Origin: a virus
Strand: one strand, 5' to 3'
IMG/VR virus record: IMGVR_UViG_3300017759_000031
Span: 1-32,055 of that record
DNA: 32,055 bases
The translations under genes were made by a program, and so were the position numbers. Below, piece after piece: positions 11,795 to 31,805 of this stretch (position 1 is the first letter of the stretch; the number at the start of each line of letters is the position of its first letter). Under the pieces are notes generated by a model, which saw only the letters and a list, made by a program, of their open reading frames with translations, searched no databases and was not told where the DNA came from.

Positions 11795-13150
11795 ATGGTT
11801 ACAGAACAAAACTTAATAGATTCAAAAGATGAAATTGAAGAGTTAGAAGAACTTCAAGAAGAGAAAAAACCCGTTGTCCAAAGACTTAGTGATGTTGGAA
11901 TAGAATTAAAATCTATAAGTGATTATGTTATGTCGGATTATGAAGCAGTAACCCTACTATCAAAAAATCTTAACATCAATGCTACTGAAGCAAGAAAACA
12001 ATTAACTTCTTTTCCTAGACAATATTCTTTTGATGGAGAAAATATCCCAGACTTAGTTAAAAAAATGCGAAGGGCAAGAAGAAAACTAAAGGGTGAAGAA
12101 AGAGTAAGAATGGCTAAAGCAATTGATACTATTATAGATGGGTATTCTGACCACATTTCAAAATGTATTGAATCAATATACTGGTTAAACCCGTATAAGG
12201 AACCACTCCTAAAAATGAAATTCAATGAAAAAGATTTACTAAAACTTCACAAAATTGATGATGTTAAAACTAGAAGAGTTATTGTAGATTCGTTGTGCAA
12301 GTTTTGGGAAAATGATTTAAAGAAAAAAGACATGGTTTATGGCAAAGACTATTCATCTTTAGAAAAGACATGTCGTTTAGCAAAGAAAGACTTTAGGGCG
12401 GAGATTAAGAAAATTTCAGACCAATCAATAATCAAAACTAAAAAAGAAAAAGTTCTTAGTTTTATTGAAACTGAAATAAGAAAAAGTCCCGGAATTGGTG
12501 CTAAACAACTTCATGACAAATTACCATCTCAATTACACAAAGGAACAACTTCAAACATGATTTCTAAAATGGTTAAAAAATTAGATGTTGCTGTTGTTAA
12601 TGGTGGCTATTATAAAATGCCAAGCGAAATAAAAAAGAATATTTGGGCTTATACTGCTGCATTTATTGATTCCGATGGCTACATTACTATGGATAGAAAC
12701 CATAACCCAAGAGTGGGTTTAATTGCTACCGGAGAAAGAGGTCGTGCTTTCATGGAAGAAATGCATAAATCAATAGGTTTTGGTAAATTACATCTAAATC
12801 AAAAATCACCACAAGATACACGCCCAGTTCAAAGACTTAATTTTTATTCTCAAGCCCATGTTAGTGATTTATTAACTAAATGTCTGCCTCATTTTAGATT
12901 AAAGAAAGGTAATGCAGAATTACTTCTTGAACTGATTAGAATGAAAAAGTCTTATAAAAAAGAAGAGTGGTACAAACCAAGATGTGAAGAGATTTTCAAA
13001 TTAATGAAATGGGAAAATCATAAAGACCATGTAGGTTTTGATTTCTTAAAAGAAGGTATTTATTTAGATGATATTCAAAAATATAAAGATAACTGTAAAA
13101 TTTCTTTAATGGACTCTATGGAACAAGTTGGTAGTAATCTTTTGGTTTGA
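11795..13150 (+). CDS. Winged-helix protein with C-terminal LAGLIDADG-type domain
   Basis: This 451-residue protein follows terL after TGAGGTGC. Residues 30-215 are helical and charged and unrecognised. Residues about 218-278 look like a winged helix (VLSFIETEIRKSPGIGAKQL ... a wing near VNGGYYKM). Residues 284-380 resemble one LAGLIDADG homing-endonuclease unit: A-Y-T-A-A-F-I-D-S-D-G-Y-I (285-297) carries the catalytic acidic residue, followed by strands and S-I-G-F-G-K-L. A single motif implies a homodimer if it cleaves DNA. No intein splice residues are seen, and terL is intact. It could be a free-standing homing endonuclease, or a viral DNA-binding protein that captured the fold. The placement between terL and portal is typical of mobile endonuclease insertions. 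Confidence 0.7.
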   Translation: MVTEQNLIDSKDEIEELEELQEEKKPVVQRLSDVGIELKSISDYVMSDYEAVTLLSKNLNINATEARKQLTSFPRQYSFDGENIPDLVKKMRRARRKLKGEERVRMAKAIDTIIDGYSDHISKCIESIYWLNPYKEPLLKMKFNEKDLLKLHKIDDVKTRRVIVDSLCKFWENDLKKKDMVYGKDYSSLEKTCRLAKKDFRAEIKKISDQSIIKTKKEKVLSFIETEIRKSPGIGAKQLHDKLPSQLHKGTTSNMISKMVKKLDVAVVNGGYYKMPSEIKKNIWAYTAAFIDSDGYITMDRNHNPRVGLIATGERGRAFMEEMHKSIGFGKLHLNQKSPQDTRPVQRLNFYSQAHVSDLLTKCLPHFRLKKGNAELLLELIRMKKSYKKEEWYKPRCEEIFKLMKWENHKDHVGFDFLKEGIYLDDIQKYKDNCKISLMDSMEQVGSNLLV

Positions 13151-18426: not shown

Positions 18427-18662
18427 GTGAAGCAAATGAAGAATTATTAGCCATACTTAAGGCTTTGACAGAAAAAATAGAAAATTTAGAAAAAACAGTT
18501 TATCATCAAGATAACATTTTGATGAAATCTGGTTTTGTTGTCACTGAAAGCCCAAGCCCAAAAATGAATAATGGTGGAATTGGTACATCATCCGTTGGTG
18601 ATGTTGGTAGTATGGAATGGTCAGATATACACAAAATGGTTGAAAAAGTAGGTGGTCAATAA
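18423..18662 (+). CDS. Mini-scaffold-like protein
   Basis: This 79-residue protein starts in an ATGA overlap after GGTGATGATG. It has an N-terminal coiled coil (about 5-30, EELLAILKALTEKIENLEKT), a Gly/Ser/Asn/Pro-rich linker (40-62), and the C-terminal peptide M-E-W-S-D-I-H-K-M-V. The same ten residues end the prohead protease-scaffold fusion. The layout coil-linker-tail, and even the M-S-E start, parallel the scaffold portion of that gene. In many phages the scaffold C-terminus contacts the capsid protein, so this protein may bind the same partner: a second scaffold, a length regulator or an adaptor. That role is inference; the shared tail is directly visible. Confidence 0.75.
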   Translation: MSEANEELLAILKALTEKIENLEKTVYHQDNILMKSGFVVTESPSPKMNNGGIGTSSVGDVGSMEWSDIHKMVEKVGGQ

Positions 18663-19315: not shown

Positions 19316-21841
19316 ATGGCTTATCTTCTTGAAAAAGATAAGTCCACATCGGATGAAATTATTCGCTTATTTGAAAAAGTAAGAGTGGCTTATCTATCGG
19401 CTCGAACTGACCCGAAAGAGTACGGGTCTAAGTGGGAAAAAAGCGTAGATGCTATAACAGCAGCGTATGAAGCCACAAATGAACTTTCTAAAGAATTAAA
19501 GAATTTTATTGATATTTCTGATTTAGAAGCCGATGATTTAAAAAATCCACAATCCCAAAATGCAGAAAAGTTATTTGAAGCAATCAAAAAACTTAGATAT
19601 TCTTCCGAATCTATTGAAGACCCTTTCGCTAAAAGGTTCAAAGGGGATGTTCTTGAAGCATTATTATCTTCTGTAGAAAACATGGTTAAATTTGTCCATT
19701 ATGCTATGAGGAATGACAATAAAGTTCTTTCACCTGACATTTACGCTGTTAAAGACATGGAACCCGACGATATTACGGAGGGTCTTCAAGGACTTGACCT
19801 AGAAGTTGACGACATAGACCTCTATATTATTGAGCATTACGGGGATGGAAAAGACTCAAACAAAGTTGAATCAAAAGTAAAGGAAGCGATGAGCATATTA
19901 GAATTAATATTCTTATCCAAGAATGAAAAAGACGATTGGAGTTTCTTAGAAGATGTTGAAGGTGTTCCCGTTAAGAAATCAAAAGAAGAAAAATCAACAG
20001 AAGAAAAGTCACAATCTGATTTTATTATTCCTAATAAACCAATGTATAGAATATTTGAAATAGAAGACATGGAAGAACTAAAAGGTTTTACCGGAGACTA
20101 CTATGTTCAAGAGAAATATGACGGGCTTCGTATTCAAATGCAAAAAATAGATAATAAAGTAAAGGTGTTTTCTTTTGATAAGAAAGACATAACATCAAAG
20201 TGTAAAGAACAAGTTCAAGAGATTTCTAAGAAACACTTTGGTGATTGTATATTAGATGGCTCTTTGATTCTTTTCAATGGTGAAGAAGCATTAAATAGGG
20301 CAGAAACTATTTCTCATGTGTATAAAGATAAAAACCCTGATGGTGTATTAAAAATGCACATTTTTGATTTACTAAGACACAATGAAAAGTCTTTACTTGA
20401 GGAACCTTTAGAACAAAGAATGACTACTATTTTTAATAATTATTCTGTTCACTCAAGCGAAATGCTTTCTTTCCCTTCTAAGAAAGATACTCGATTAGCA
20501 GACTCTTTGAAAGATATAGAAGAGTATGCTAAAGAAATTATGAAGATGCCAACAGCAGAAGGAGTTGTTATAAAAGATGCAACTTCTACTTATTATGTTG
20601 GTACTAAGAAAAACCCTAAATGGATTAAGTGGAAGAGTTTCGTCGATTTAGATTTAATTGTTCTTGATAAAAAGTCATCCGGTGGTAATTATTCCTATAC
20701 ATTAGGAGCAGGGCCAACAGAAGGAGAAGGTAAAGACTATCAAGAAATTGAAGGTAAAACATATATGGTTGTTGGAAAGGCTCTAAATACTAAAATTTCT
20801 GCGGATTTAGGAAGCATTGTTAGAGTTAAAATAGACCAAGTTAAGAAAGAAGGAGAAAGATACATTGTAAATTCTGCTAAAGTAGTTGAAATACCTGAAG
20901 CAAGACATCCAGATAAATTAGTTACTCTTGAAATTCTTGCAAAAGATGAGAAGAAAGCATTGAATTATAATGTTGAAGAAGTCAAAAAAGGAATATTAGT
21001 TACTGACCATATTCACGGAGAGGCATCTATTTTAATCAAAGGAGATATGGATGGCTTTACTATTTATGGATTTGAAGAAGATAATTTGATGGCTAAAAAT
21101 GCTTTAGTTGATTTGGATATGTGGAAGCAACAAGCAGAAGAAATAATGAAAACTAAACAATCACGATTGACTGTTGCAGGATTTCAATTTATGAAAACAA
21201 CTGGGCCTAAAACAATTAAAGAGATGCACAACTTTTTAGTAAAGAATCATAAAGATTTATACGAAGATATATTAGAAAGTAAATTAAGTAGATTAAAGGA
21301 CTGGATGAAACAAAGGGATGGTATTTCTTTTGATGAAAAAACAAATAAACTATATTCCGAAGACGATAAAATACTACAAGAAGAAAATATTTTAAAATCA
21401 TATAAAACTCCCAAAGAATATCAATCTGGGAAATTTAAGTTATATTTAAGGAATGATGACAATTTAAATCTAATAATTAAATTAAAAGACGAAACTCTAA
21501 ATTGGTTAATTGATTTAGATGATGATGGAGATATATTTGATTTGTTTGGCAAAGCCGGAAAATTCCCTGCTATGATAGCAACCAATACATCTAAAAGAAA
21601 AATTATTGATGAAGGTAAAATTCGATTAGGTGTTCAAAAACATGGTTATCATGAGTATTTCTTAGAAGGAAATAAATTTGAGACTAAATTCAACATAAGA
21701 AAATTAAGAGTAGATGATAATGATATGTGGTTGGCTTGGTCTGGATATAAACAAACCCCCGCCGATGACGAAGGAGATATGGGATTATGGAATATCTATG
21801 AGGATAGGAACAAAAAATTACCCCTTCCTCCTAAAAAATAG
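19316..21841 (+). CDS. ATP-dependent DNA ligase with long N- and C-terminal extensions
   Basis: This 841-residue protein seals nicks using ATP. Nucleotidyltransferase motifs are in order: motif I E-K-Y-D-G-L-R (266-272, K267 is the AMP-accepting lysine), motif III around L-D-G-S-L-I-L-F (313-320), motif IV E-G-V-V-I-K (415-420) and motif V W-I-K-W-K (436-440), then an OB-like region to about 540. ATP ligases of phages are usually 300-500 residues. Here 240 residues precede motif I and about 300 follow the OB fold. The last 130 residues (including N-W-L-I-D-L, H-G-Y-H-E-Y-F-L-E-G) faintly recall a LigD-type phosphoesterase domain; this is uncertain. Position between assembly genes rather than replication genes is unusual. 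Confidence 0.88.
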   Translation: MAYLLEKDKSTSDEIIRLFEKVRVAYLSARTDPKEYGSKWEKSVDAITAAYEATNELSKELKNFIDISDLEADDLKNPQSQNAEKLFEAIKKLRYSSESIEDPFAKRFKGDVLEALLSSVENMVKFVHYAMRNDNKVLSPDIYAVKDMEPDDITEGLQGLDLEVDDIDLYIIEHYGDGKDSNKVESKVKEAMSILELIFLSKNEKDDWSFLEDVEGVPVKKSKEEKSTEEKSQSDFIIPNKPMYRIFEIEDMEELKGFTGDYYVQEKYDGLRIQMQKIDNKVKVFSFDKKDITSKCKEQVQEISKKHFGDCILDGSLILFNGEEALNRAETISHVYKDKNPDGVLKMHIFDLLRHNEKSLLEEPLEQRMTTIFNNYSVHSSEMLSFPSKKDTRLADSLKDIEEYAKEIMKMPTAEGVVIKDATSTYYVGTKKNPKWIKWKSFVDLDLIVLDKKSSGGNYSYTLGAGPTEGEGKDYQEIEGKTYMVVGKALNTKISADLGSIVRVKIDQVKKEGERYIVNSAKVVEIPEARHPDKLVTLEILAKDEKKALNYNVEEVKKGILVTDHIHGEASILIKGDMDGFTIYGFEEDNLMAKNALVDLDMWKQQAEEIMKTKQSRLTVAGFQFMKTTGPKTIKEMHNFLVKNHKDLYEDILESKLSRLKDWMKQRDGISFDEKTNKLYSEDDKILQEENILKSYKTPKEYQSGKFKLYLRNDDNLNLIIKLKDETLNWLIDLDDDGDIFDLFGKAGKFPAMIATNTSKRKIIDEGKIRLGVQKHGYHEYFLEGNKFETKFNIRKLRVDDNDMWLAWSGYKQTPADDEGDMGLWNIYEDRNKKLPLPPKK

Positions 21842-21885: not shown

Positions 21886-23115
21886 ATGAGCATAAGCGTT
21901 ATGGCTACAAGGAATGATGATTTTAGCATTCTCAAAAGCAACGACGACTTAATGATTGGTGGATATGCAAGTATTGAAATCGTAGATAAACAAAACGATT
22001 TAATTACATTAAACGCATTAAAAGATTCAGTAACAAAGTTTATGGGAGACTCAAAATTTAGAAATGTAATGACTAATCATTCAAATGTGCAAGTTGGAGA
22101 AGTTGTTGATTCATATAGAGATAAAAACGGAAAATTATGGAAATCCGAAGTTGATGATGTTGGGTTCTTTGTTGTAATTAAATTAAGAGATGACATCGAA
22201 AAAGCAAAAGAAGTGGGGAGAAATATTCGCAAAGGTTCGTTAAGAAGTTTTAGCATTGGTGGACAGGCATTACAAAAAGTAAAGAAAAGCCACAAAGAAT
22301 TAGGGGAATATAACGAAATTAGTAAGTTAGAACTCCACGAAGTTACAATATGTGAAAAAGGAATTAACCCCGAAGCGAAATTCGATATTTTAAAACAAGA
22401 TATAGGAAGTGAAAAAATGAGTGAAAAACTAGAAAAAGCACTGAGCGAGTTGGACACCTTGTTAGAAGAAGTTAATACTCTTCGCAAGGAAGAAGAGGAT
22501 GAAATGATGGAACGGGCATCTATGGCAGAAACCGCAGAAATGGCTGATGAAGAAGAAGACATGGATATGGACAAAGGAAACTATGAAATGGCTGATGAAG
22601 AAGAAGACATGGAAATGGGAGAATACCAAGATGATGAAACAAAAGCATACCTTCGTACCCTTGATGGCGCAGGAAACCAAATTGGCGAACCTGCCGACCG
22701 AATTGTAATTAACAACGGAAAGCCGACTTCTTCGGATATGCCAGTTGTTAAAGCATTTGAAAACAATGAATTTGATTCTCTTGATTTGATTAATGCAAAC
22801 ATCGAAAAGGCTTATGCTGCTTTCCGTGAAGAACAACTCGAAGCACTTGCCTACGATAATCTACGAAAGTCTTTTGAGTCTCGATTTGCCAGTGAACGAG
22901 CAAACCGTGAAAACATTCTCGCAAAGTCTCAATATGACGCAGCAAGTGAGATTTCTTCTCTTAAGGAAGAATTTACACAATTGCGAAAGTCTTTGACAGC
23001 CGAGAAAGATTCAATCATTAAGGCTCAAGAAGAATCTAAAGTAACCCTCCCATCGTTGAACGATATTGCAGAAATGGAATGGTCAGACATTCATAAGATG
23101 GTGAACAACATTTGA
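21886..23115 (+). CDS. Prohead protease-scaffold fusion
   Basis: ATG 21886 gives 409 residues; a TTG at 21877 is an alternative. Residues 15-170 fit the HK97-type prohead serine protease: H65 in T-N-H-S-N-V-Q-V-G-E, S123 in L-R-S-F-S-I-G-G, and E152 in L-H-E-V-T-I-C-E, followed by G-I-N-P-E-A. The protease matures the capsid by cutting scaffold and capsid protein. Residues 178-409 are scaffold-like: coiled coil (180-205), an acidic tandem repeat (216-247), a Gly/Pro linker, long helices (300-385), and the C-terminal tail M-E-W-S-D-I-H-K-M-V-N-N-I. Fusion of protease and scaffold is known in tailed phages. It is followed by the capsid gene. Codon use becomes visibly less AT-rich in the scaffold half. 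Confidence 0.87.
   Translation: MSISVMATRNDDFSILKSNDDLMIGGYASIEIVDKQNDLITLNALKDSVTKFMGDSKFRNVMTNHSNVQVGEVVDSYRDKNGKLWKSEVDDVGFFVVIKLRDDIEKAKEVGRNIRKGSLRSFSIGGQALQKVKKSHKELGEYNEISKLELHEVTICEKGINPEAKFDILKQDIGSEKMSEKLEKALSELDTLLEEVNTLRKEEEDEMMERASMAETAEMADEEEDMDMDKGNYEMADEEEDMEMGEYQDDETKAYLRTLDGAGNQIGEPADRIVINNGKPTSSDMPVVKAFENNEFDSLDLINANIEKAYAAFREEQLEALAYDNLRKSFESRFASERANRENILAKSQYDAASEISSLKEEFTQLRKSLTAEKDSIIKAQEESKVTLPSLNDIAEMEWSDIHKMVNNI
22417..23115 (+). CDS. Probable nested scaffold protein from internal start
   Basis: An in-frame ATG at 22417 lies exactly at the junction of the protease and scaffold parts. It is preceded by TAGGAAGTGAAAAA, a plausible ribosome site in the middle of a gene. 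The product would be 232 residues starting M-S-E-K-L-E-K-A-L-S-E-L, a coiled coil resembling the start of the 79-residue protein at 18423 (M-S-E-A-N-E-E-L-L). The arrangement matches the nested lambda gene pair C/Nu3, where scaffold is made separately from the protease fusion. Expression from this site is inference. Confidence 0.5.
   Translation: MSEKLEKALSELDTLLEEVNTLRKEEEDEMMERASMAETAEMADEEEDMDMDKGNYEMADEEEDMEMGEYQDDETKAYLRTLDGAGNQIGEPADRIVINNGKPTSSDMPVVKAFENNEFDSLDLINANIEKAYAAFREEQLEALAYDNLRKSFESRFASERANRENILAKSQYDAASEISSLKEEFTQLRKSLTAEKDSIIKAQEESKVTLPSLNDIAEMEWSDIHKMVNNI
22537..22613 (+). repeat. Two 29-bp direct repeats, 48-bp period, acidic linker
   Basis: GAAATGGCTGATGAAGAAGA continues identically for 29 bases at 22537-22565 and again at 22585-22613. 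The repeats encode E-M-A-D-E-E-E-D-M-[DE], giving a 16-residue period in the acidic linker of the scaffold. A recent tandem duplication is the simplest explanation. Confidence 0.85.
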
Positions 23116-23127
23116 AGGTGATTTATT

Positions 23128-24465
23128 ATGACAGGATATATTAATACAATAGCAGACTTAGAAGCGCAAACATACGGAATTAACAACTTACCTGCCGGTA
23201 ATGCTTTATTGAAGCAAGCCGGTATGGTCGGCGGTATTCACACAGGACACGACGGTTCTCCGTCTTTGTCCGGTAGTGGAGTTAGTGATGTTTCGGCATT
23301 ATACAACATCGTTTATGGACAAAAGGTTTGGTCTATGCTAAACCGAGAAGTTAACGCATTATCAATGATTGCAAAGCGACCTTATTCTTCAAGTGGTTGG
23401 AGAGTATTGAAAAGCCGACCTGCTGGCGGTAGTGGGAACTTATTCACTGTTGACGCAAGCGGAACAGAAAACCTTGCAGAATTAGGTTCGGATAGTCCAA
23501 GAGCAGATATGATTGGTGGTGTTCCTGAGAACGCTGCTCTTTCAACTGCTCAAGATGGATTAGGGCCTATTGCTCCAACTTATGCTCAATTAAACATGAG
23601 TCCAAAAGTTGTTGCACATCAATTCGATTTCAGTGAACTTGCTATGGAAATGGCACAAATTGATGACGGTATTGGAGATATTCGAGCGCAAATGCGTGAA
23701 GATATGGGTAAGCACCACGCAGAAGTACAAAACAAGATGCTAGTTATGCCATTAGAGCATTATGGTGAAAGTTCCGCTATGCCTAACATTGGGAACAACT
23801 ATTCATCATTGTTGAAGGTTATTACATCAAGAGCAGAATTACTCCTAATTGATGGTGGAGTTCTTGCTACTGATACAACCTCCGCTTCTAACGCATTAGG
23901 TAAGATTTACGGTAGTGAGCGATTTAGTGCCGCTTCTTTCCTTGATGCAGAAGTTGATTTCGGAACAGACTATACCGCAGGTAATGTTCGTTCTTTAACT
24001 TTAACTCTTTTGAACAATATGATTCGTAACTTGCGACTTGCAGGTGGCTCTCCAAAGGTTATCCTTACTGGATATGACACTATTCAAACATTGGCTGACC
24101 TATTGCAAAGCCAAGAGCGATTTATGGATAGAAAAGAAATTGTACCAACAGTTAATGGTGTTCGTGGGACAAAAGGACAAGAAGTAGGTTTCCGTGTGGC
24201 AACTTATTACGATATTCCTCTAATTCCGGTTAAAGACATGACCGCTACTGGTGCTGCTTCATCCAAACTAAGTGATATGCTTTTCCTTGATACTGACCAT
24301 TTGTGGCTATCCGTTATGAAACCAACTCAATACTTTGAAGATGGTATCGCAAACGGTAATCCATTTGGTGTAGGAACTTTGGGCAACCGAGCCCTTTACC
24401 GAACAATTGGTGAAGTCGGATGTTCATTCTTCAAAGGACAAGGAAAGATAACAAACATACAATGA
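23128..24465 (+). CDS. Major capsid protein, HK97 fold
   Basis: This 445-residue protein is the expected shell protein, placed directly after protease-scaffold with AAGGTGATTT upstream. The N-terminal 50 residues are Gly/Ser-rich. The W-S-M-L-N-R-E-V-N-A-L-S-M-I-A-K-R region (68-84) fits the N-arm/E-loop part of HK97-like capsid proteins, and helical and strand segments to L-S-V-M-K-P-T-Q-Y-F-E-D (about 393-404) and the C-terminal G-A/P-domain core follow. Composition is less AT-rich, with Ala, Gly and Ser abundant and frequent CGA/GCA/CTT codons, as expected of a highly expressed gene. I see no sequence signature that names the capsid family precisely, so the call rests on position, length and composition. 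Confidence 0.85.
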   Translation: MTGYINTIADLEAQTYGINNLPAGNALLKQAGMVGGIHTGHDGSPSLSGSGVSDVSALYNIVYGQKVWSMLNREVNALSMIAKRPYSSSGWRVLKSRPAGGSGNLFTVDASGTENLAELGSDSPRADMIGGVPENAALSTAQDGLGPIAPTYAQLNMSPKVVAHQFDFSELAMEMAQIDDGIGDIRAQMREDMGKHHAEVQNKMLVMPLEHYGESSAMPNIGNNYSSLLKVITSRAELLLIDGGVLATDTTSASNALGKIYGSERFSAASFLDAEVDFGTDYTAGNVRSLTLTLLNNMIRNLRLAGGSPKVILTGYDTIQTLADLLQSQERFMDRKEIVPTVNGVRGTKGQEVGFRVATYYDIPLIPVKDMTATGAASSKLSDMLFLDTDHLWLSVMKPTQYFEDGIANGNPFGVGTLGNRALYRTIGEVGCSFFKGQGKITNIQ

Positions 24466-25519: not shown

Positions 25520-25804
25520 ATGGTAGCAGGTTGTCGAAGTAGTGGTGTTTTAACAGCAGATAAATTGGTTGTAACAGGACAAGCAAAATTAATTAGCATT
25601 CATGCAGCAGAAGTTGGTGGTGCTGGCGCACCAGCATTAATTAAAGTGTATGATAGTACATCTGCTAGTGGTAAAGAAATAGCACGAATGGCTATAGGTG
25701 GCGAACAAACGCTTGAATTTGATATGCATGGTGTATTATGCACTAATGGCATTTTCTTTGAAGAAGTCAGTGGTGCAGTAGCAGTTTCAATAGAATTTTC
25801 TTGA
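25520..25804 (+). CDS. Small beta-rich protein, possible virion surface protein
   Basis: This 94-residue protein starts at ATG 25520 with GAAGTGATAT upstream. It is rich in Gly, Ala, Val and Ser with alternating hydrophobic strands (KLVVTGQAKLISIHAAEVGG, PALIKVYDSTSASGKEIARM, LEFDMHGVLCTNGIFFEE, AVAVSIEFS), the pattern of a small jelly-roll or beta-sandwich. The C-terminus F-S is followed at once by TGAGGTGATTT. Proteins of this type are often capsid or tail decoration. Inference from context and composition. Confidence 0.65.
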   Translation: MVAGCRSSGVLTADKLVVTGQAKLISIHAAEVGGAGAPALIKVYDSTSASGKEIARMAIGGEQTLEFDMHGVLCTNGIFFEEVSGAVAVSIEFS

Positions 25805-25813
25805 GGTGATTTA

Positions 25814-26227
25814 ATGGCCGCATTAAATAATGATACTAGATTAGTTATGACTATTTTATTTGTTGGTACTGTTAGTGGAGCAAATGTGTATTTTTACTCC
25901 GCTTACGGTTTAACTTTCCCATATGGAGCATTAGCACATTCAGTTCTTTTTGGATTGATTACAGTTGGTGGAATAATGGTAATGAAAGCATTATTTGATT
26001 TATCTTTAAATGATAGAATAGAAGTAAGACTATTAGATAGACAAATTGAATCACACTTTCAACGAGTAGCAAGAGAACAACAGATTAGACAAAAACTTAG
26101 AGATAGCATGAAACAATATGGTGTTCAAAGGAGAGAATCATGGAATACTGTTTATCCCGAACAACCAACTGCTTCTTTTGAAGAAAGCCAAATACCTAAT
26201 GAATTTTTAGCAACCATCCAACAGTAG
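25814..26227 (+). CDS. Two-pass membrane protein with cytoplasmic helical tail
   Basis: This 137-residue protein starts at ATG 25814 after TGAGGTGATTTA. Two hydrophobic segments (about 10-31, VMTILFVGTVSGANVYFYSA, and 40-62, AHSVLFGLITVGGIMVMKAL) are joined by a short loop. Residues 65-137 are a charged amphipathic helix with Arg/Gln-rich segments (RIEVRLLDRQIESHFQRVAR, EQQIRQKLRDSMKQ). By the positive-inside rule the tail is cytoplasmic. It is the first gene of a module with another membrane protein and a small GTPase. It could be a membrane anchor for virus assembly or exit, a holin-like protein or a receptor-type protein; nothing decides. Confidence 0.75.
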   Translation: MAALNNDTRLVMTILFVGTVSGANVYFYSAYGLTFPYGALAHSVLFGLITVGGIMVMKALFDLSLNDRIEVRLLDRQIESHFQRVAREQQIRQKLRDSMKQYGVQRRESWNTVYPEQPTASFEESQIPNEFLATIQQ

Positions 26228-26236
26228 GTGGTTTAA

Positions 26237-26458
26237 TTGGTTCTTGGCGATATTATGGGTTTTTCCGACTCGGATTACGCATATAATCAATCAAGGGCTC
26301 ATTCCGCAGATATTTTCTTTATGAAAATGAGAGCGTGGTTTTGGGGTAGTTGTGCTACATTATCGGCATTACTCATAGGAAATATTATGGGTGTCTTTGA
26401 TGTCAATATTATGGGTTCTTTAATTTCTTTAGTTAAATCAATATTCGGAGGGCATTAA
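26237..26458 (+). CDS. Small membrane protein
   Basis: This 73-residue protein starts at TTG 26237 after TAGGTGGTTTAA. The N-terminal 30 residues are polar with several Ser, Asp and Tyr. A hydrophobic segment W-F-W-G-S-C-A-T-L-S-A-L-L-I-G-N-I-M-G (about 34-52) is followed by a second amphipathic hydrophobic helix (M-G-S-L-I-S-L-V-K-S-I-F-G). Its stop directly abuts the GTPase start, and its 3' end supplies the ribosome site GGAGGGC. Function unknown; likely co-translated with, and possibly a partner of, the GTPase. Confidence 0.7.
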   Translation: MVLGDIMGFSDSDYAYNQSRAHSADIFFMKMRAWFWGSCATLSALLIGNIMGVFDVNIMGSLISLVKSIFGGH

Positions 26459-27127
26459 ATGTCAGTAATGGCAGGGTTCGCTATATTAATTACAGAAGCA
26501 GTAGTTTCATTTTATAAAAGAGTTCATGCTATAAATTTTGGTGTTTATGGTTCAACTATGGTGGGTAAAACAACTTTAAGTCATCAAATGAGAACTAGGG
26601 GAGAAGTACCACAAATAAACAAGAGAACAGTTGGTTTAGAAAGAGCAAGCAGAAAGGTAATTAAATTTGATGGAGATTCTCACACTTTAAAAAGTTCGGA
26701 TATTGGTGGCGAGGCAATATATTGGAAAGAATGGATTAAAGACATGAAAAGCAGAAAAGTAAAATATATTATTTTTATGATAGACCATAGACATTTAGAT
26801 TCTCCTGCAAACCTAGACCATCAATTAGCGTGGAAATTTTTAGTAGATACAATTATGTCAAATACATGGCCTAACGGAAAAAGAAAAAAAGAAGCAGATT
26901 ATCCCATGGCAGTAAGTATATGGGCAAACAAATATGATATATGGGGAGAAAAATATCCATTGAGAGAAGGACAACAAATTGATAAACATGATATTTATGA
27001 ACCATTTAAATATGGAATGCGCCAATTAAACGACAAAGGAATACCCACTTTTAAATATATTGTTTCTGCAAAATCTGACCCTGAAATGGTTTATAAAGGA
27101 ATTACTACTCTAATAAGAGATTACTGA
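26459..27127 (+). CDS. Arf/Sar-like small GTPase
   Basis: This 222-residue protein has all five G motifs: G1 G31-S-T-M-V-G-K-T-T39, G2 T57 in R-T-V-G, G3 D81-I-G-G84, G4 N157-K-Y-D160, G5 S203-A-K. The Arf/Sar family is favoured because G1 spacing matches G-x4-G-K-T-T, because G3 is D-x-G-G with a Trp (W92) eleven residues later as in Arf, and because an N-terminal amphipathic or hydrophobic helix (3-19) precedes the domain, as in Arf/Sar membrane anchoring. The residue corresponding to the catalytic Gln of Arf is Glu (E85), which may slow hydrolysis. Known relatives switch membrane-bound complexes on and off. Two membrane genes upstream suggest a membrane role here. Rab/Rag-like or MglA-like assignment is possible. 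Confidence 0.82.
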   Translation: MSVMAGFAILITEAVVSFYKRVHAINFGVYGSTMVGKTTLSHQMRTRGEVPQINKRTVGLERASRKVIKFDGDSHTLKSSDIGGEAIYWKEWIKDMKSRKVKYIIFMIDHRHLDSPANLDHQLAWKFLVDTIMSNTWPNGKRKKEADYPMAVSIWANKYDIWGEKYPLREGQQIDKHDIYEPFKYGMRQLNDKGIPTFKYIVSAKSDPEMVYKGITTLIRDY

Positions 27128-27136
27128 GGAATAACT

Positions 27137-27766
27137 ATGTATCAACAACCGAATTTAATAAGTAGCCCGCAAACACAGAATTTATTTTTGCCTAAATTAC
27201 AACAGTTTAGAGCATCAGGTAGTATAGAAGAATATACCTTTGATGCACTAAAACCGAAAAAACAATTAAAAGAAATAAAGAAAGTATTACTTCCCGAAAA
27301 GAAAAAATTTATTTTTAAATATGGATATAAATTTAATTTAAAAGATAGGTGTATTGTTTGTGGAATGCATCATATTTGGGAATCAAGTGATTATTTGCGA
27401 CCTCCTATTCCTTTAGATAATGTTACTAAAGGAAGACCTATGCGTGGAACATATTGTCAAAAACATGCAGGTATTCATAAACAAATGGAAATGCTACAAC
27501 AACAAATTTTAGCAGATGAACACGGTTTAGATTTCAAAGCATTTATACCTAGACCAAAAGTACCTCAAATGTTAAAAAGTGGCCCATTGAAAACATTGAC
27601 TAGGGAAGATGTTTTATCCTTGTCCTCAACCGGATGGATTATAACGCCACCCGTAGTCAAGGATAATGAGGGCGAGATGGCCGAAGCGATTAGATTAATA
27701 GCGGAAATAGAAATTAATACTAAGAGACTACATTCAATGATGACAAACAGTAAAGGAGAGGAATAA
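27137..27766 (+). CDS. Hypothetical zinc-site protein
   Basis: This 209-residue protein starts at ATG 27137, two codons past the GTPase stop, with TGAGGAATAA upstream. A probable metal site spans C72-I-V-C75-G-M-H78-H79 and C107-Q-K-H110 with H114 nearby. The N-terminal 60 residues are basic and probably extended; residues 110-125 are helical; the C-terminal 40 residues form an acidic helix (EGEMAEAIRLIAEIEINTKRL). No family recognised. Its location suggests a role with the GTPase and membrane proteins, or as a virion component. Confidence 0.7.
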   Translation: MYQQPNLISSPQTQNLFLPKLQQFRASGSIEEYTFDALKPKKQLKEIKKVLLPEKKKFIFKYGYKFNLKDRCIVCGMHHIWESSDYLRPPIPLDNVTKGRPMRGTYCQKHAGIHKQMEMLQQQILADEHGLDFKAFIPRPKVPQMLKSGPLKTLTREDVLSLSSTGWIITPPVVKDNEGEMAEAIRLIAEIEINTKRLHSMMTNSKGEE

Positions 27767-27768
27767 AC

Positions 27769-28428
27769 ATGGTTTTTGGAACAAGTAATAAAGCAGTAAT
27801 GGGTGCGGTACAAGCACAAAATGACCAACAATTTAAAAATGTAAATAACTTATTATCTTTACAAGATAATCATGTTGAAGAATTTTTTCAATATCATGGA
27901 GAGCAATTTTTATCTACCCTTGAAAAATTAATGGAAGATGTAGTTGAAAGAGTAGTCAGTCAAATGTTAGCAAAATTATCTTTTACTAATGTTGGCTCAA
28001 AAATGGTTATTGATGCAGATGCTATGAGAGATTATGAAAGAATTACTCAAGAGAATATTGATTTAGACATCCAAAGGATATTACAATCGGCAATTAACTC
28101 AGAAGTTGTGAACCAAAGGAAACTTGCTAAGTCGCAATATCTTGAATCTCAAGGATTTAGCGGTGGCGGTGGCATGAATCCGGTAGCACCGACAGCAGGT
28201 ATGGCTATGGCCGGAGTTATGGGACAACAGCAACAATACAACCAAGTTCAAGGTGCTATGAATAATGGAACCGGCTACCCTATTCCTCCTTCGGGAACAG
28301 ACGGATATGGTCGCCCATATTGGATTGACCCAAATAACGGGCAAATGTCATATGAACCTCCTTCAAGTGGATTACATCTTGGTTCTGCAATTCAAAAAGG
28401 TGCTGCTTGGGCTAAATGGTTAATGTGA
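27769..28428 (+). CDS. Hypothetical protein, helical with Gly/Met/Gln-rich C-terminal half
   Basis: This 219-residue protein starts at ATG 27769 just after the previous stop with GGAGAGGAAT upstream. Residues 15-125 are helical (NLLSLQDNHVEEFFQYHGEQ, STLEKLMEDVVERVVSQMLA), likely a coiled-coil oligomer. Residues 130-185 are low complexity, rich in Gly, Met, Gln, Asn and Pro. The end is Y-G-R-P-Y-W-I-D-P-N-N-G-Q, Pro/Ser and an Ala/Lys/Trp helix (AAWAKWLM). Such tails occur in fibre-like or membrane-interacting virion proteins. Function unknown. Confidence 0.7.
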   Translation: MVFGTSNKAVMGAVQAQNDQQFKNVNNLLSLQDNHVEEFFQYHGEQFLSTLEKLMEDVVERVVSQMLAKLSFTNVGSKMVIDADAMRDYERITQENIDLDIQRILQSAINSEVVNQRKLAKSQYLESQGFSGGGGMNPVAPTAGMAMAGVMGQQQQYNQVQGAMNNGTGYPIPPSGTDGYGRPYWIDPNNGQMSYEPPSSGLHLGSAIQKGAAWAKWLM

Positions 28429-28438
28429 GTGGATTAAC

Positions 28439-30685
28439 TTGAAATTAACATATGGCCGAATAGACCGTGAAATAGAGGTCAATGAAAGTTTTATGTTAAA
28501 AGAAATGCTTACATATGTTTTTAAAGAATATTTAAATGACAAAAATACAAGGAGAATAAATACGCAACTTTCATTAAGAAGCATGAAAAATAATAATCCT
28601 AATGATTTTGACGATAAAAAAACCGAGTATAAAAATATTTATGATTCTACTTTAAAAAAACTAAAGGGAAGTGATGAACAATCTTTAAGAGTTTTAAGTA
28701 ATAAAGTTAAATTAAATACAAAAGGTAAAGAAATTATAGACTATCTATATGAAATTAAGTCATCACCTTCGTTCAAAAATAATGCAGTTAGTTTTTCTGA
28801 TTTGAATGATAATAATTTTACTAACCTTACTTTACAAACACCCACAAGTTCTGGGGATTTAAGAGCCAAAAAAAGAAAAGGTTTTGAACAAGCGGCCTAT
28901 AATAAATATATGCAAGGTATTGAAATAGAAAAAGAAGGCCAAAAAACTGAAACAATAGAAAGTAAAAATAAAGAAGGTAAAAAAATAAAAGTCAAAAGGA
29001 CTACCGATAAAAAAATTATTAAATTTAATGAATTTGGTTTAAATCCATTAAATCCAAATGAAAGAGATAAAGTTAATAAAATAAATTTTCTATATAACCT
29101 TGGTGTTAGACCAATAACTCTTACTAGAATTGTTATATCGACTAAAGGTAAAAGTGTCGCTTCAAAAGAAAGAAAAGTTGGTGGAAAAGAAGGAGAAATA
29201 AAAGATATTGGTAGAAAAACTACTGATATAACCGGAGGTGAAAAAGAATCAACTCCGAGTTTATTGAATACTAGAAGTAATAAGACTAAATATATCTTTG
29301 AAAGTATGTTTGACTTAGAACCAGTCGGAAAAAATCTACCTAATCGCAATAATGCTTCACAAGTTAGACTGTATAAATTTCTTGGAGATATTGCTCGACA
29401 ATTTAAAAAACATCTTAAAAATGTTAAAGAACTATCTAAAAAAGCAAAAGAAGATGTTTATGAAATGGTTCTTTCTGAAGAAGATAAAAAATTTAATAAA
29501 AAACATTTTCCTGTAACTGAATATAATGATGAAGGTGAAATAAGTAATAACTATAAAAAGGTTGGAAACAAAACAATTGAGAGAAAATTAGGCGAGCGTA
29601 AATTAGTAGTTGAAAAGGACAGTTTTAAAATTTTATCTTTTGATGAGATAAATGAACTAAAGTCTATTTCTACAAGTTATGCTGGAAAAGGTGGTAAAAG
29701 TGTGGCTTCAGAATTTAAAGTACAAACTTTAGAAGACCTAATAAATAGCGTAGAACTCAAAAAAGATACAGATAAAGTTGATTTTAATAAATTTAAAAGG
29801 GCTATTAAAGTTTTGAGATTGCTACTTAACTTGTCCTCTACGAAACAAAGAAAAAAAGGGGCTCCTATCACTCTAGAAGGAGATTCCGCTAAAAAGTACA
29901 AGCAATACATTAAAGATTTTAATATAGAAATACAAAAAATGCAAAGAATCTTAACTTCTAATATAAAAGAATCAAACGCTGCAATATTATCACTAAAAGA
30001 AAAAAAGAAAAATTATGTTGATGAAAAATTAGAAAAACTTAAAACAAATAGAAAGAAGATTTTGACTACTCGAACTATGCCCGAAGAATTTAAAGATAAA
30101 TATTATTTAGACCCAGAACAATCCAGTTCTAAAAAATACAGGCGAAAAAAATGGACTGAAAAAGATTTCTTTAATCTTTTAGAATCTGGTTTTTTTGGCC
30201 CAAAGGCTAAAGAAGGAACTAAGCCCGAAGATATGAGCGCAAAAGAAAGAAGAAGGTACGATTTGGAAGAGGCTTCTAAAACAACCCAAGTTATAAATGT
30301 AAGTGATAAAGAATATGAAAACTTTACAGATGCTAAAAACGCTAGAAAAGCATTTAATGACCCTAAAGGTTGGACAAAATCAATATTTGCTGAACCCTTT
30401 AGGGATATGTCTAACTTATATAATTTAGAAATAAGAGTTTCAAAAATTAAAACAGGTAAAGAAAGCCCTAAATATAAATTTGAAGTATTTAATTTTGGCA
30501 CTACGCACGAAATAACTCAATCATCTGTTGACCCAAGAGCAAAAGGCAAAGAAGATAAAGCCAAATCTAGGTTTGCAGGTACAGTAAAAAGAGATAAGGA
30601 TTTAATTACAGATGTCAATGTGTTTATAAATTCAGTTAGAACAAACATTGATAAATTGGAAAAATCATTACTAAGAGGTGTTTAA
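28439..30685 (+). CDS. Giant Lys/Glu-rich hypothetical protein D
   Basis: This 748-residue protein starts at TTG 28439 after GAGTGGATTAAC, a degraded form of the usual site. It is hydrophilic and very Lys-rich, with several Lys/Gly/Ser-rich linkers (for example K-G-K-S-V-A-S-K-E-R-K at about 236-246, a motif G-K-S-V-A-S that recurs near 420) and long helical regions (about 470-545). No signal peptide, membrane segment or catalytic motif. Composition matches giant proteins A-C, but I see no clear sequence relation. It lies directly before the head-tail connector. An internal virion protein is possible. Confidence 0.75.
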   Translation: MKLTYGRIDREIEVNESFMLKEMLTYVFKEYLNDKNTRRINTQLSLRSMKNNNPNDFDDKKTEYKNIYDSTLKKLKGSDEQSLRVLSNKVKLNTKGKEIIDYLYEIKSSPSFKNNAVSFSDLNDNNFTNLTLQTPTSSGDLRAKKRKGFEQAAYNKYMQGIEIEKEGQKTETIESKNKEGKKIKVKRTTDKKIIKFNEFGLNPLNPNERDKVNKINFLYNLGVRPITLTRIVISTKGKSVASKERKVGGKEGEIKDIGRKTTDITGGEKESTPSLLNTRSNKTKYIFESMFDLEPVGKNLPNRNNASQVRLYKFLGDIARQFKKHLKNVKELSKKAKEDVYEMVLSEEDKKFNKKHFPVTEYNDEGEISNNYKKVGNKTIERKLGERKLVVEKDSFKILSFDEINELKSISTSYAGKGGKSVASEFKVQTLEDLINSVELKKDTDKVDFNKFKRAIKVLRLLLNLSSTKQRKKGAPITLEGDSAKKYKQYIKDFNIEIQKMQRILTSNIKESNAAILSLKEKKKNYVDEKLEKLKTNRKKILTTRTMPEEFKDKYYLDPEQSSSKKYRRKKWTEKDFFNLLESGFFGPKAKEGTKPEDMSAKERRRYDLEEASKTTQVINVSDKEYENFTDAKNARKAFNDPKGWTKSIFAEPFRDMSNLYNLEIRVSKIKTGKESPKYKFEVFNFGTTHEITQSSVDPRAKGKEDKAKSRFAGTVKRDKDLITDVNVFINSVRTNIDKLEKSLLRGV

Positions 30686-30686
30686 A

Positions 30687-31805
30687 TTGGCAATAGCATC
30701 ATCCCCAAGCGACTATACGGCAATAAATGTTGACTATTCAACAGGTAGCGGATATTACACTGATAAAGGGGCAGTAGCAGATATGCTACAAATACCCGCA
30801 TTTTCAAGTTCTACTTATCCAACTCAAGCACAAGTAGGCGCAATAATAAAAAATATAGAGGGTATTATTGACGATAAGGTAAAGCGTTCTTATAGGCCAA
30901 TTATTTACAGAAATGAATTTCATAACTTTGAATTTATTCGACACCCTATGCAATCGTATTATGGTGGCTATGTTGGCTTTGTTCAATTAGATACTTTAAA
31001 ATTAAAAAAGGTTATTTCATTACAAGTTTGGCAAGGAAACAGTTATCAAGAACTTGCTTCTGCTCAAGCCAGTTTAACTCTTGATACATCGGGATATGCA
31101 AGCCTAAGAAGCATTACATTACAATTACCTAACAGTGGAGATTCTTGGGTATTGTATCATCATGCCGAAGGTTCATTAGCCGCACACAATACTTTTCATA
31201 ATGGTTTTGGTTCAAAAACAACTGCTCAAGAAATTTGTCATTTAATTAACGAAGAATACCCATCAAAGACAGCACAATTTACAGGTGCTACAAGAGACAA
31301 AGTATTGACTTCTTCACCTAATGGCCTAAACATAAGTGATTTCTTCTATGCAAGCACAGACCCCGATAATGGTAATAAAGTGAACATTTCTAGCCTTTTA
31401 GCAGGTGAAGATGGCTCATTTTGTACTATTACTCTTGCAGATAAGGCGGGTCAAACATCAAGCACACAGTCGGTTGCGTTCACTGATATGCAGGATATGA
31501 AGAGACTTGGTTCTTTTTGGAGTATAGGCGATGAAGGCCGCATTTTCTTCTTAAGAGACTATCCTTATCATACACAAAATTCAATCATTTGTACTTATAT
31601 TGCGGGTAGTAGTCGCGTACCTTCGGCAATACACAAAGCCGCAACAATGTTAGTTGCAGCAGAATTGCTTAGACATGACGACCAAACAATTTTAATCGCT
31701 GAAACTGGCAGTAATATTTCAACGAAGGAAAAGTATGATATACTCAAGAAGGAAGCAGATGATATACTCAAGGGCAAGTCCGACTTGGTGTTTTTATTAG
31801 ATTGA
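30687..31805 (+). CDS. Head-tail connector (gp6-like) protein, expanded
   Basis: I chose TTG 30687 over GTG 30678 because the GTG lies inside GAGGTG, the ribosome site. The 372-residue protein has the helical start of gp6-type connectors: A-Q-V-G-A-I-I-K-N-I-E-G-I-I-D-D-K-V-K-R-S-Y-R (residues about 45-67), and a closing helical part I-H-K-A-A-T-M-L-V-A-A-E-L-L-R-H-D-D (about 310-327). Connectors of this type normally have 100-200 residues. The beta-rich middle (about 80-300, Ser/Thr/Gly-rich) looks like an insertion. The family links the portal ring to the tail. Position between capsid genes and the next tagged protein agrees. Confidence 0.72.
   Translation: MAIASSPSDYTAINVDYSTGSGYYTDKGAVADMLQIPAFSSSTYPTQAQVGAIIKNIEGIIDDKVKRSYRPIIYRNEFHNFEFIRHPMQSYYGGYVGFVQLDTLKLKKVISLQVWQGNSYQELASAQASLTLDTSGYASLRSITLQLPNSGDSWVLYHHAEGSLAAHNTFHNGFGSKTTAQEICHLINEEYPSKTAQFTGATRDKVLTSSPNGLNISDFFYASTDPDNGNKVNISSLLAGEDGSFCTITLADKAGQTSSTQSVAFTDMQDMKRLGSFWSIGDEGRIFFLRDYPYHTQNSIICTYIAGSSRVPSAIHKAATMLVAAELLRHDDQTILIAETGSNISTKEKYDILKKEADDILKGKSDLVFLLD

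Follow-up and report, generated by a model that had tools for sequence, protein, structure and literature searches.

The window analysed here (positions 1 to 32,055 of the IMG/VR virus record IMGVR_UViG_3300017759_000031, that is, the whole stretch of 32,055 nucleotides) encodes a small GTPase of the Ras superfamily (TRAFAC class), and its gene is the third of a five-gene module that lies within the capsid gene block of magroviruses and is present or absent as a unit. This identification is solid because motifs, profiles and fold all agree. Small GTPase switches are characteristic of membrane traffic in eukaryotes, and there is much debate about their origins in archaea. The family described here occurs in very common and abundant tailed viruses of the ocean, which probably infect non-Asgard archaea, and extends virus-encoded small GTPases past the giant viruses of eukaryotes. 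We propose, with about an even chance of being right, that the protein works as a late membrane-associated GTP switch at the centre of the module and serves virion assembly or egress.

The small GTPase and its family

The GTPase gene (26459..27127, plus strand, 222 amino acids) is an intact open reading frame located exactly where the initial annotation had placed it, and its ATG start abuts the stop codon of the preceding gene. That annotation described an Arf/Sar-like small GTPase with all five G motifs readable, and in fact the five motifs are found at the positions it gave, all on the plus strand: the G1 or P-loop motif GSTMVGKT (residues 31-38, 26549..26572), the G2 threonine T57 in the RTVG of switch I (26627..26629), the G3 motif DIGGE (residues 81-85, 26699..26713), whose last residue is the catalytic position, the G4 motif NKYD (residues 157-160, 26927..26938) and the G5 motif SAK (residues 203-205, 27065..27073). 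G1 (GxxxxGK[ST]), G3 (DxxG), G4 (NKxD) and G5 (SAK) follow one another in the correct order both in the window protein and in 148 distinct full-length members of the family, among which G31, G36, K37, T38, T57, D81, G83, G84, N157, K158, D160, S203, A204 and K205 never vary, although this invariance is partly selected because some of the motifs were search seeds. The Arf-like spacing between DxGG and a tryptophan was also borne out, as W92 (26732..26734, plus strand) stands 11 residues past D81 and is invariant in the 148 members; this is the spacing found in the Arf and G-alpha families.

Two scans of IMG/VR gave 236 and 242 relatives, and the GTPase is conserved across hundreds of marine viral contigs. 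When a degenerate DNA pattern for DxGGExxYW was used, 118 of the 119 stretches retrieved scored as members of the family, and extra members were collected via a WANKxDxW pattern, which leaves the G3 motif outside. The dN/dS values between the window GTPase and six relatives were 0.03-0.11, with dS near or above 1 and therefore close to saturation; despite this, the sequences clearly point to strong purifying selection on the gene. Two contigs depart from the usual picture. In one of them, and in this contig alone, a stop codon (L011, 6373-6375) splits the GTPase frame, which would be either a sequencing error or a damaged copy. The other (IMGVR_UViG_3300021958_000021, 184,733 bases) carries two GTPase copies 91.8 kb apart, about one genome length, so the assembly has probably linked two related genomes, or a dimer, into one contig.

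The glutamate that the initial annotation had pointed out at the position of the Arf catalytic glutamine is real in the window protein, and the two residues are exchanged within the family. Position 85 is Glu in 137 of the 148 members and Gln in the other 11, and a scan not conditioned on G3 found 20 new loci with DxGGE and 17 with DxGGQ. In a tree of 63 rows the Gln rows all fall inside one clade of 25, and by parsimony at least four changes between Gln and Glu are required, two of them forced by well supported branches. The restriction of this position to Gln or Glu argues for a working catalytic position, and a loss of catalysis through Glu85 was ruled out by the presence of Gln in related viruses and by the repeated exchange. 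In Ras, a change of Gln61 to Glu preserves or raises intrinsic hydrolysis. The viral protein is predicted to hydrolyse GTP.

The AlphaFold (AF2) model, built from 40 diverse sequences, shows the topology of a G domain preceded by a helix (residues 2-22), with a pLDDT of 77.3 and a pTM of 0.78; switch I and some of the P-loop (residues 35-40 and 45-57) are modelled with low confidence. An earlier model from a shallow alignment (pLDDT 51) was discarded. The best 50 matches listed in a Foldseek search of the PDB are all GTPases of the Ras/Rho/Rab/Arf/Arl/G-alpha type or complexes with them, and the absence of any non-GTPase fold among these 50 speaks against a different P-loop class. The highest target-normalised TM-scores among the PDB matches listed (0.70-0.73) belong to the Asgard GerdArfR1 (8oum, 8ouk). 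Furthermore, with a deeper profile that included the Gln-type relatives, 8oun, which judging from its entry code presumably forms one Asgard Arf series with 8ouk and 8oum, ranked first of the PDB sequences (E 0.06) and aligned from the helix onward. The matches obtained in PHROGs (Sak4-like and guanylate kinase proteins, best 6e-4) look like P-loop cross-hits.

Profile searches support the small GTPase class, but the Pfam profiles Arf, Ras, Roc and SRPRB give similar scores, none of which reaches the cut-off. The NCBIfam profile TIGR00231 (small_GTP) has a match in each of 40 members, the best at 2.7e-6; with 15.8 bits against a cut-off of 42.5, the window protein is by this profile a remote relative and not a standard member. 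Across the family there are weak matches to the Pfam families MMR_HSR1, SRPRB, Roc, Ras, G-alpha and Arf, below their gathering cut-offs, and a single-sequence search with the window protein gave only a weak match to Roc (3e-3). Arf (PF00025) does not match the window protein and matches 11 of 25 family members (best 3.6e-5, equal to Ras and Roc and below the gathering cut-off), while SRPRB matches 22 of 25 (best 1.7e-4; 13.3 bits for the window protein against a cut-off of 25), and SRPRB, Roc, Ras and MMR_HSR1 match the members as well as Arf or better.

According to these data, the name Arf-like is fair as a description of anatomy. The viral protein shares with Arf, Arl and Sar proteins, including the Asgard ArfR, the small GTPase fold, DxGG[Q/E], the tryptophan at +11, a T-V-G switch I and an N-terminal helix directly before beta-1, and Asgard Arfs are among its top hits by structure and by profile. 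Membership of the Arf/Sar family, by contrast, was not supported: the Pfam Arf cut-off is not reached, the Gly2 needed for myristoylation is absent (the window protein has Ser at residue 2), G5 is SAK, the insert between G3 and G4 is long, the surroundings of G3 and G4 are rich in tryptophan and, unlike the Arf proteins, this one is encoded by a virus. The SRP receptor beta subunit offers another likeness, as its GTPase domain also lies behind an N-terminal hydrophobic anchor and SRPRB is among the most frequent Pfam hits of the family; it differs in that the viral proteins score below its cut-off and that no SR-alpha-like partner was seen.

The N-terminal helix (residues 2-22, 26462..26524, plus strand), supported by the AF2 model (pLDDT 76-83) and by hydropathy, ends in KR or KK. 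The initial annotation had called it amphipathic; the helix itself is predicted, but its amphipathicity is weak, since in most members the hydrophobic moment does not differ significantly from that of shuffled sequences, and it is hydrophobic instead. Its mean hydropathy over 19 residues (1.1-2.0) is borderline for a transmembrane segment, and E13 is conserved in 147 of the 148 members, the remaining one having a gap. A helix with a near-invariant Glu would be a poor transmembrane helix too. It could be a membrane anchor, and attachment of the GTPase to a membrane is likely.

A small GTPase is unusual for head-tailed viruses of prokaryotes, as the initial annotation had supposed. No relative was found among the 50,697 records of INPHARED, PHROGs contained no credible match to the family, and the best 50 BFVD matches listed include no protein from a prokaryotic virus, the best being from giant viruses of eukaryotes. 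The literature covered by our search contained no report of a small GTPase in prokaryotic viruses, and an earlier mention in the magrovirus literature is possible. The giant-virus (NCLDV) Ras/Rab GTPases that constitute these BFVD matches are likewise virus-encoded; they show 10-19% identity to the magrovirus GTPase over the matches, their hosts are eukaryotes and, as far as we know, they do not form a capsid-linked module.

The five-gene module in the head block

All genes of the module and its borders, as well as those of the capsid protein and the adaptor described below, are on the plus strand. Module gene 1 (25814..26227, 137 amino acids) encodes a protein with one clear hydrophobic segment followed by a charged helical tail, with a probable second hydrophobic segment (LVMTILFVG), and its family is conserved beside the GTPase. 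Module gene 2 (26237..26458, 73 amino acids) has a conserved RAHSAD and one membrane segment. Downstream of the GTPase, module gene 4 (27137..27766, 209 amino acids) codes for a probable zinc protein, in which C72xxC75 and C107xxH110 are invariant in the alignment and for which no Pfam or PDB match was found, and module gene 5 (27769..28428, 219 amino acids) for a helical protein with a weak WW-like C-terminal stretch. This WW similarity (6 of 17 members, best 1.1e-3, below cut-off) is the sole Pfam match for the zinc, helical and first membrane proteins, and PDB profile searches with these three gave nothing convincing. No GEF or GAP was recognisable.

The order of the locus is: HK97-type major capsid protein (MCP; 23128..24465, phrog_24667, closest to Druskaviridae), small head genes, the two membrane proteins, the GTPase, the zinc protein, the helical protein, a variable large gene and a putative head-tail adaptor. 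The module is bordered on the left by a small head-region protein with a DMHG motif (25520..25804) and on the right by the variable large gene (28439..30685); the adaptor (30678..31805), which on reading resembles HCTV-1 gene 117, is also present in the sister group. The order of the five module genes is common to nearly every divergent locus with enough sequence. The head block of the Druskaviridae (HCTV-1 and HVTV-1) is alike in its MCP (about 25% identity), its adaptor and the gene order around the MCP, but no gene in the annotated part from MCP to adaptor takes the place of the GTPase. HCTV-1 gene 117 and HVTV-1 gene 125 were considered as GTPase homologues for their similar length and rejected, as they read as adaptors.

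In a capsid-seeded scan, which gives a sample not conditioned on the GTPase, 20 loci contained the gene out of the 32 that extend 4.5 kb or more downstream. The 12 loci without it all belong to other MCP groups, more distant by MCP profile score, and within the MCP clade of the window every locus with at least 4.5 kb downstream has it, according to the table. In the sister MCP group exactly the five module genes are missing and the genes on both sides are kept, and three of the longer contigs of this group (32, 37 and 61 kb) have no GTPase elsewhere. As the five genes are gained or lost as a block, they most simply form one functional unit, in which the GTPase is linked in an all-or-none manner with the zinc protein and the two membrane proteins; from this gene neighbourhood we infer a partnership of the five products.

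These data also bear on the possibility, raised by the initial annotation, that the contig was a chromosomal mis-assembly, and on that of a captured chromosomal gene without viral function. We found nothing in favour of either and no sign of a mis-assembly, and consider both refuted: dozens of contigs have the GTPase inside a conserved block of capsid genes, with fixed synteny, it recurs in hundreds of marine viral contigs and in complete-looking genomes, and its dN/dS is below about 0.11.

Possible roles of the module

The reading to which we give about an even chance, the late membrane-associated switch, can be outlined as follows. The GTPase would be made late, alongside the capsid proteins, and its hydrophobic N-terminal helix would hold it at the cytoplasmic membrane of the host, beside the two membrane proteins encoded upstream. 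By switching between GDP and GTP it might recruit or release the zinc and helical proteins encoded downstream, and the step controlled could be one in which heads dock and mature at the membrane, or one in which the membrane is remodelled to let the virus out. The link to the membrane is suggested by the hydrophobic helix and the two membrane-protein genes directly upstream, and the late role by the location of the GTPase inside the head block, in conserved order and in every locus of the MCP clade with enough downstream sequence. A fixed block beside the capsid genes suggests a GTP-controlled step at the host membrane. A stronger version, which we regard as doubtful, is that the five products make up a complete GTP-controlled membrane-remodelling machine that shapes or cuts the host membrane in assembly or non-lytic exit. 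If this were true, no Arf-like trafficking switch would have been seen before in viruses that infect prokaryotes, and the GTPase might represent an ancient viral offshoot of the Arf/SR-beta lineage.

A virion component or a function in entry would suit the position among head genes just as well. In tailed viruses the interval between head genes and adaptor normally holds virion genes, and the module lies between the head genes and the head-tail adaptor in all loci, as would be expected if the five products were virion components that aid genome delivery across the archaeal membrane. We consider this improbable, because a GTP switch requires cytoplasmic GTP, membrane proteins would be unusual in a tailed virion without a membrane, and none of the five products has the N-terminal W-x-x-I-L-K tag of the variable genes described below. 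A GTP-dependent checkpoint of capsid assembly or head-tail joining, with no role at the membrane, would also agree with the genomic location and with the universal presence of the GTPase in the MCP clade; it seems quite unlikely given the hydrophobic N-terminus and the two adjacent membrane-protein genes, and given that viruses of the sister group are assembled with these flanking genes and without the module.

For the late membrane switch, the closest functional precedent, by analogy, is ArvA (OapA, HVO_3014) of Haloferax. This small GTPase has an N-terminal helix and shares its operon with a Zn-ribbon protein; its knockout strongly lowers vesicle release and its excess raises it (PMC10927574). 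Compared by description, the viral GTPase resembles ArvA in the N-terminal helix and in belonging to a conserved gene set with a downstream, in the viral case probable, zinc protein; the viral set differs in including two membrane proteins, and the Pfam families of ArvB (SepF-like, DUF2073) and ArvC (DUF2072 Zn-ribbon) were not recognised in the neighbours of the viral gene. Because euryarchaeal ArvA governs vesicle release (PMC10927574), and because fold and motifs of the viral protein resemble those of archaeal Arf-type GTPases, the latter could instead be a host-derived decoy that takes over or blocks host vesicle formation or envelope signalling, for manipulation of the host or superinfection exclusion. 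This too we hold to be unlikely, as genes for host takeover are usually variable whereas the viral GTPase is invariant in position and highly conserved, and as it has no close cellular relative. Its sole match in genome_contigs (79% identity) is a contig of a Maricaulis MAG (NZMJ01000024.1, in a GTDB bacterial bin) that appears to be a mis-binned virus contig, probably a viral contamination of the MAG. The late membrane switch raises the testable question of whether head-tailed archaeal viruses place a membrane step under GTP control, as ArvA does for haloarchaeal vesicles, and the module offers a defined five-protein set for reconstitution.

The virus and its variable genes

The window carries terminase, portal, maturation protease and capsid genes, together with an 841-residue protein (19316-21841) that has an ATP-dependent DNA ligase domain and lies inside the head block between portal and protease. 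A relative of 96.8 kb with repeated ends (G005, loci L087-L091) carries RFC, PolB, a TFIIB-type zinc ribbon, Cpn60 and a UvrD-type helicase, and has its replication and morphogenesis genes on opposite strands. The Magrovirales are tailed viruses of 90-110 kb with replication and morphogenesis modules on opposite strands and a gene set of PolB, RFC, TFB, chaperonin and ligase (ICTV profiles). The features found here match this description, so the window belongs to a magrovirus, and from the affiliation of the group we infer that its hosts are Poseidoniales archaea.

Between the terminase and the portal, the gene at 11795-13150 contains a LAGLIDADG-like stretch (AFIDSDGYI) that suggests a homing-endonuclease domain. 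Many late genes begin with M-x-W-x-x-[ILV]-[IL]-K (in the window, those starting at 1036, 2333, 8809, 9650, 10048 and 31816), and similar MxW starts occur at 1997 and 9278. In the 96.8-kb relative (L088-L091), 19 of 23 occurrences of W-x-x-h-h-K are N-terminal, all of them on the late strand. This N-terminal tag is present in 18 of 18 variable genes inserted near the GTPase and in none of about 340 conserved head or module genes, and it looks like a targeting signal for variable cargo, with a logic like that of the capsid-targeting sequence of T4; some of the tagged genes appear by eye to be ADP-ribosyltransferase- or nucleotidyltransferase-like. Finally, the maturation protease and a small upstream protein of the window (23070-23112 and around 18600-18660) end in related peptides, MEWSDIHKMV, which could be a scaffold-side counterpart of the tag or a variant of it.
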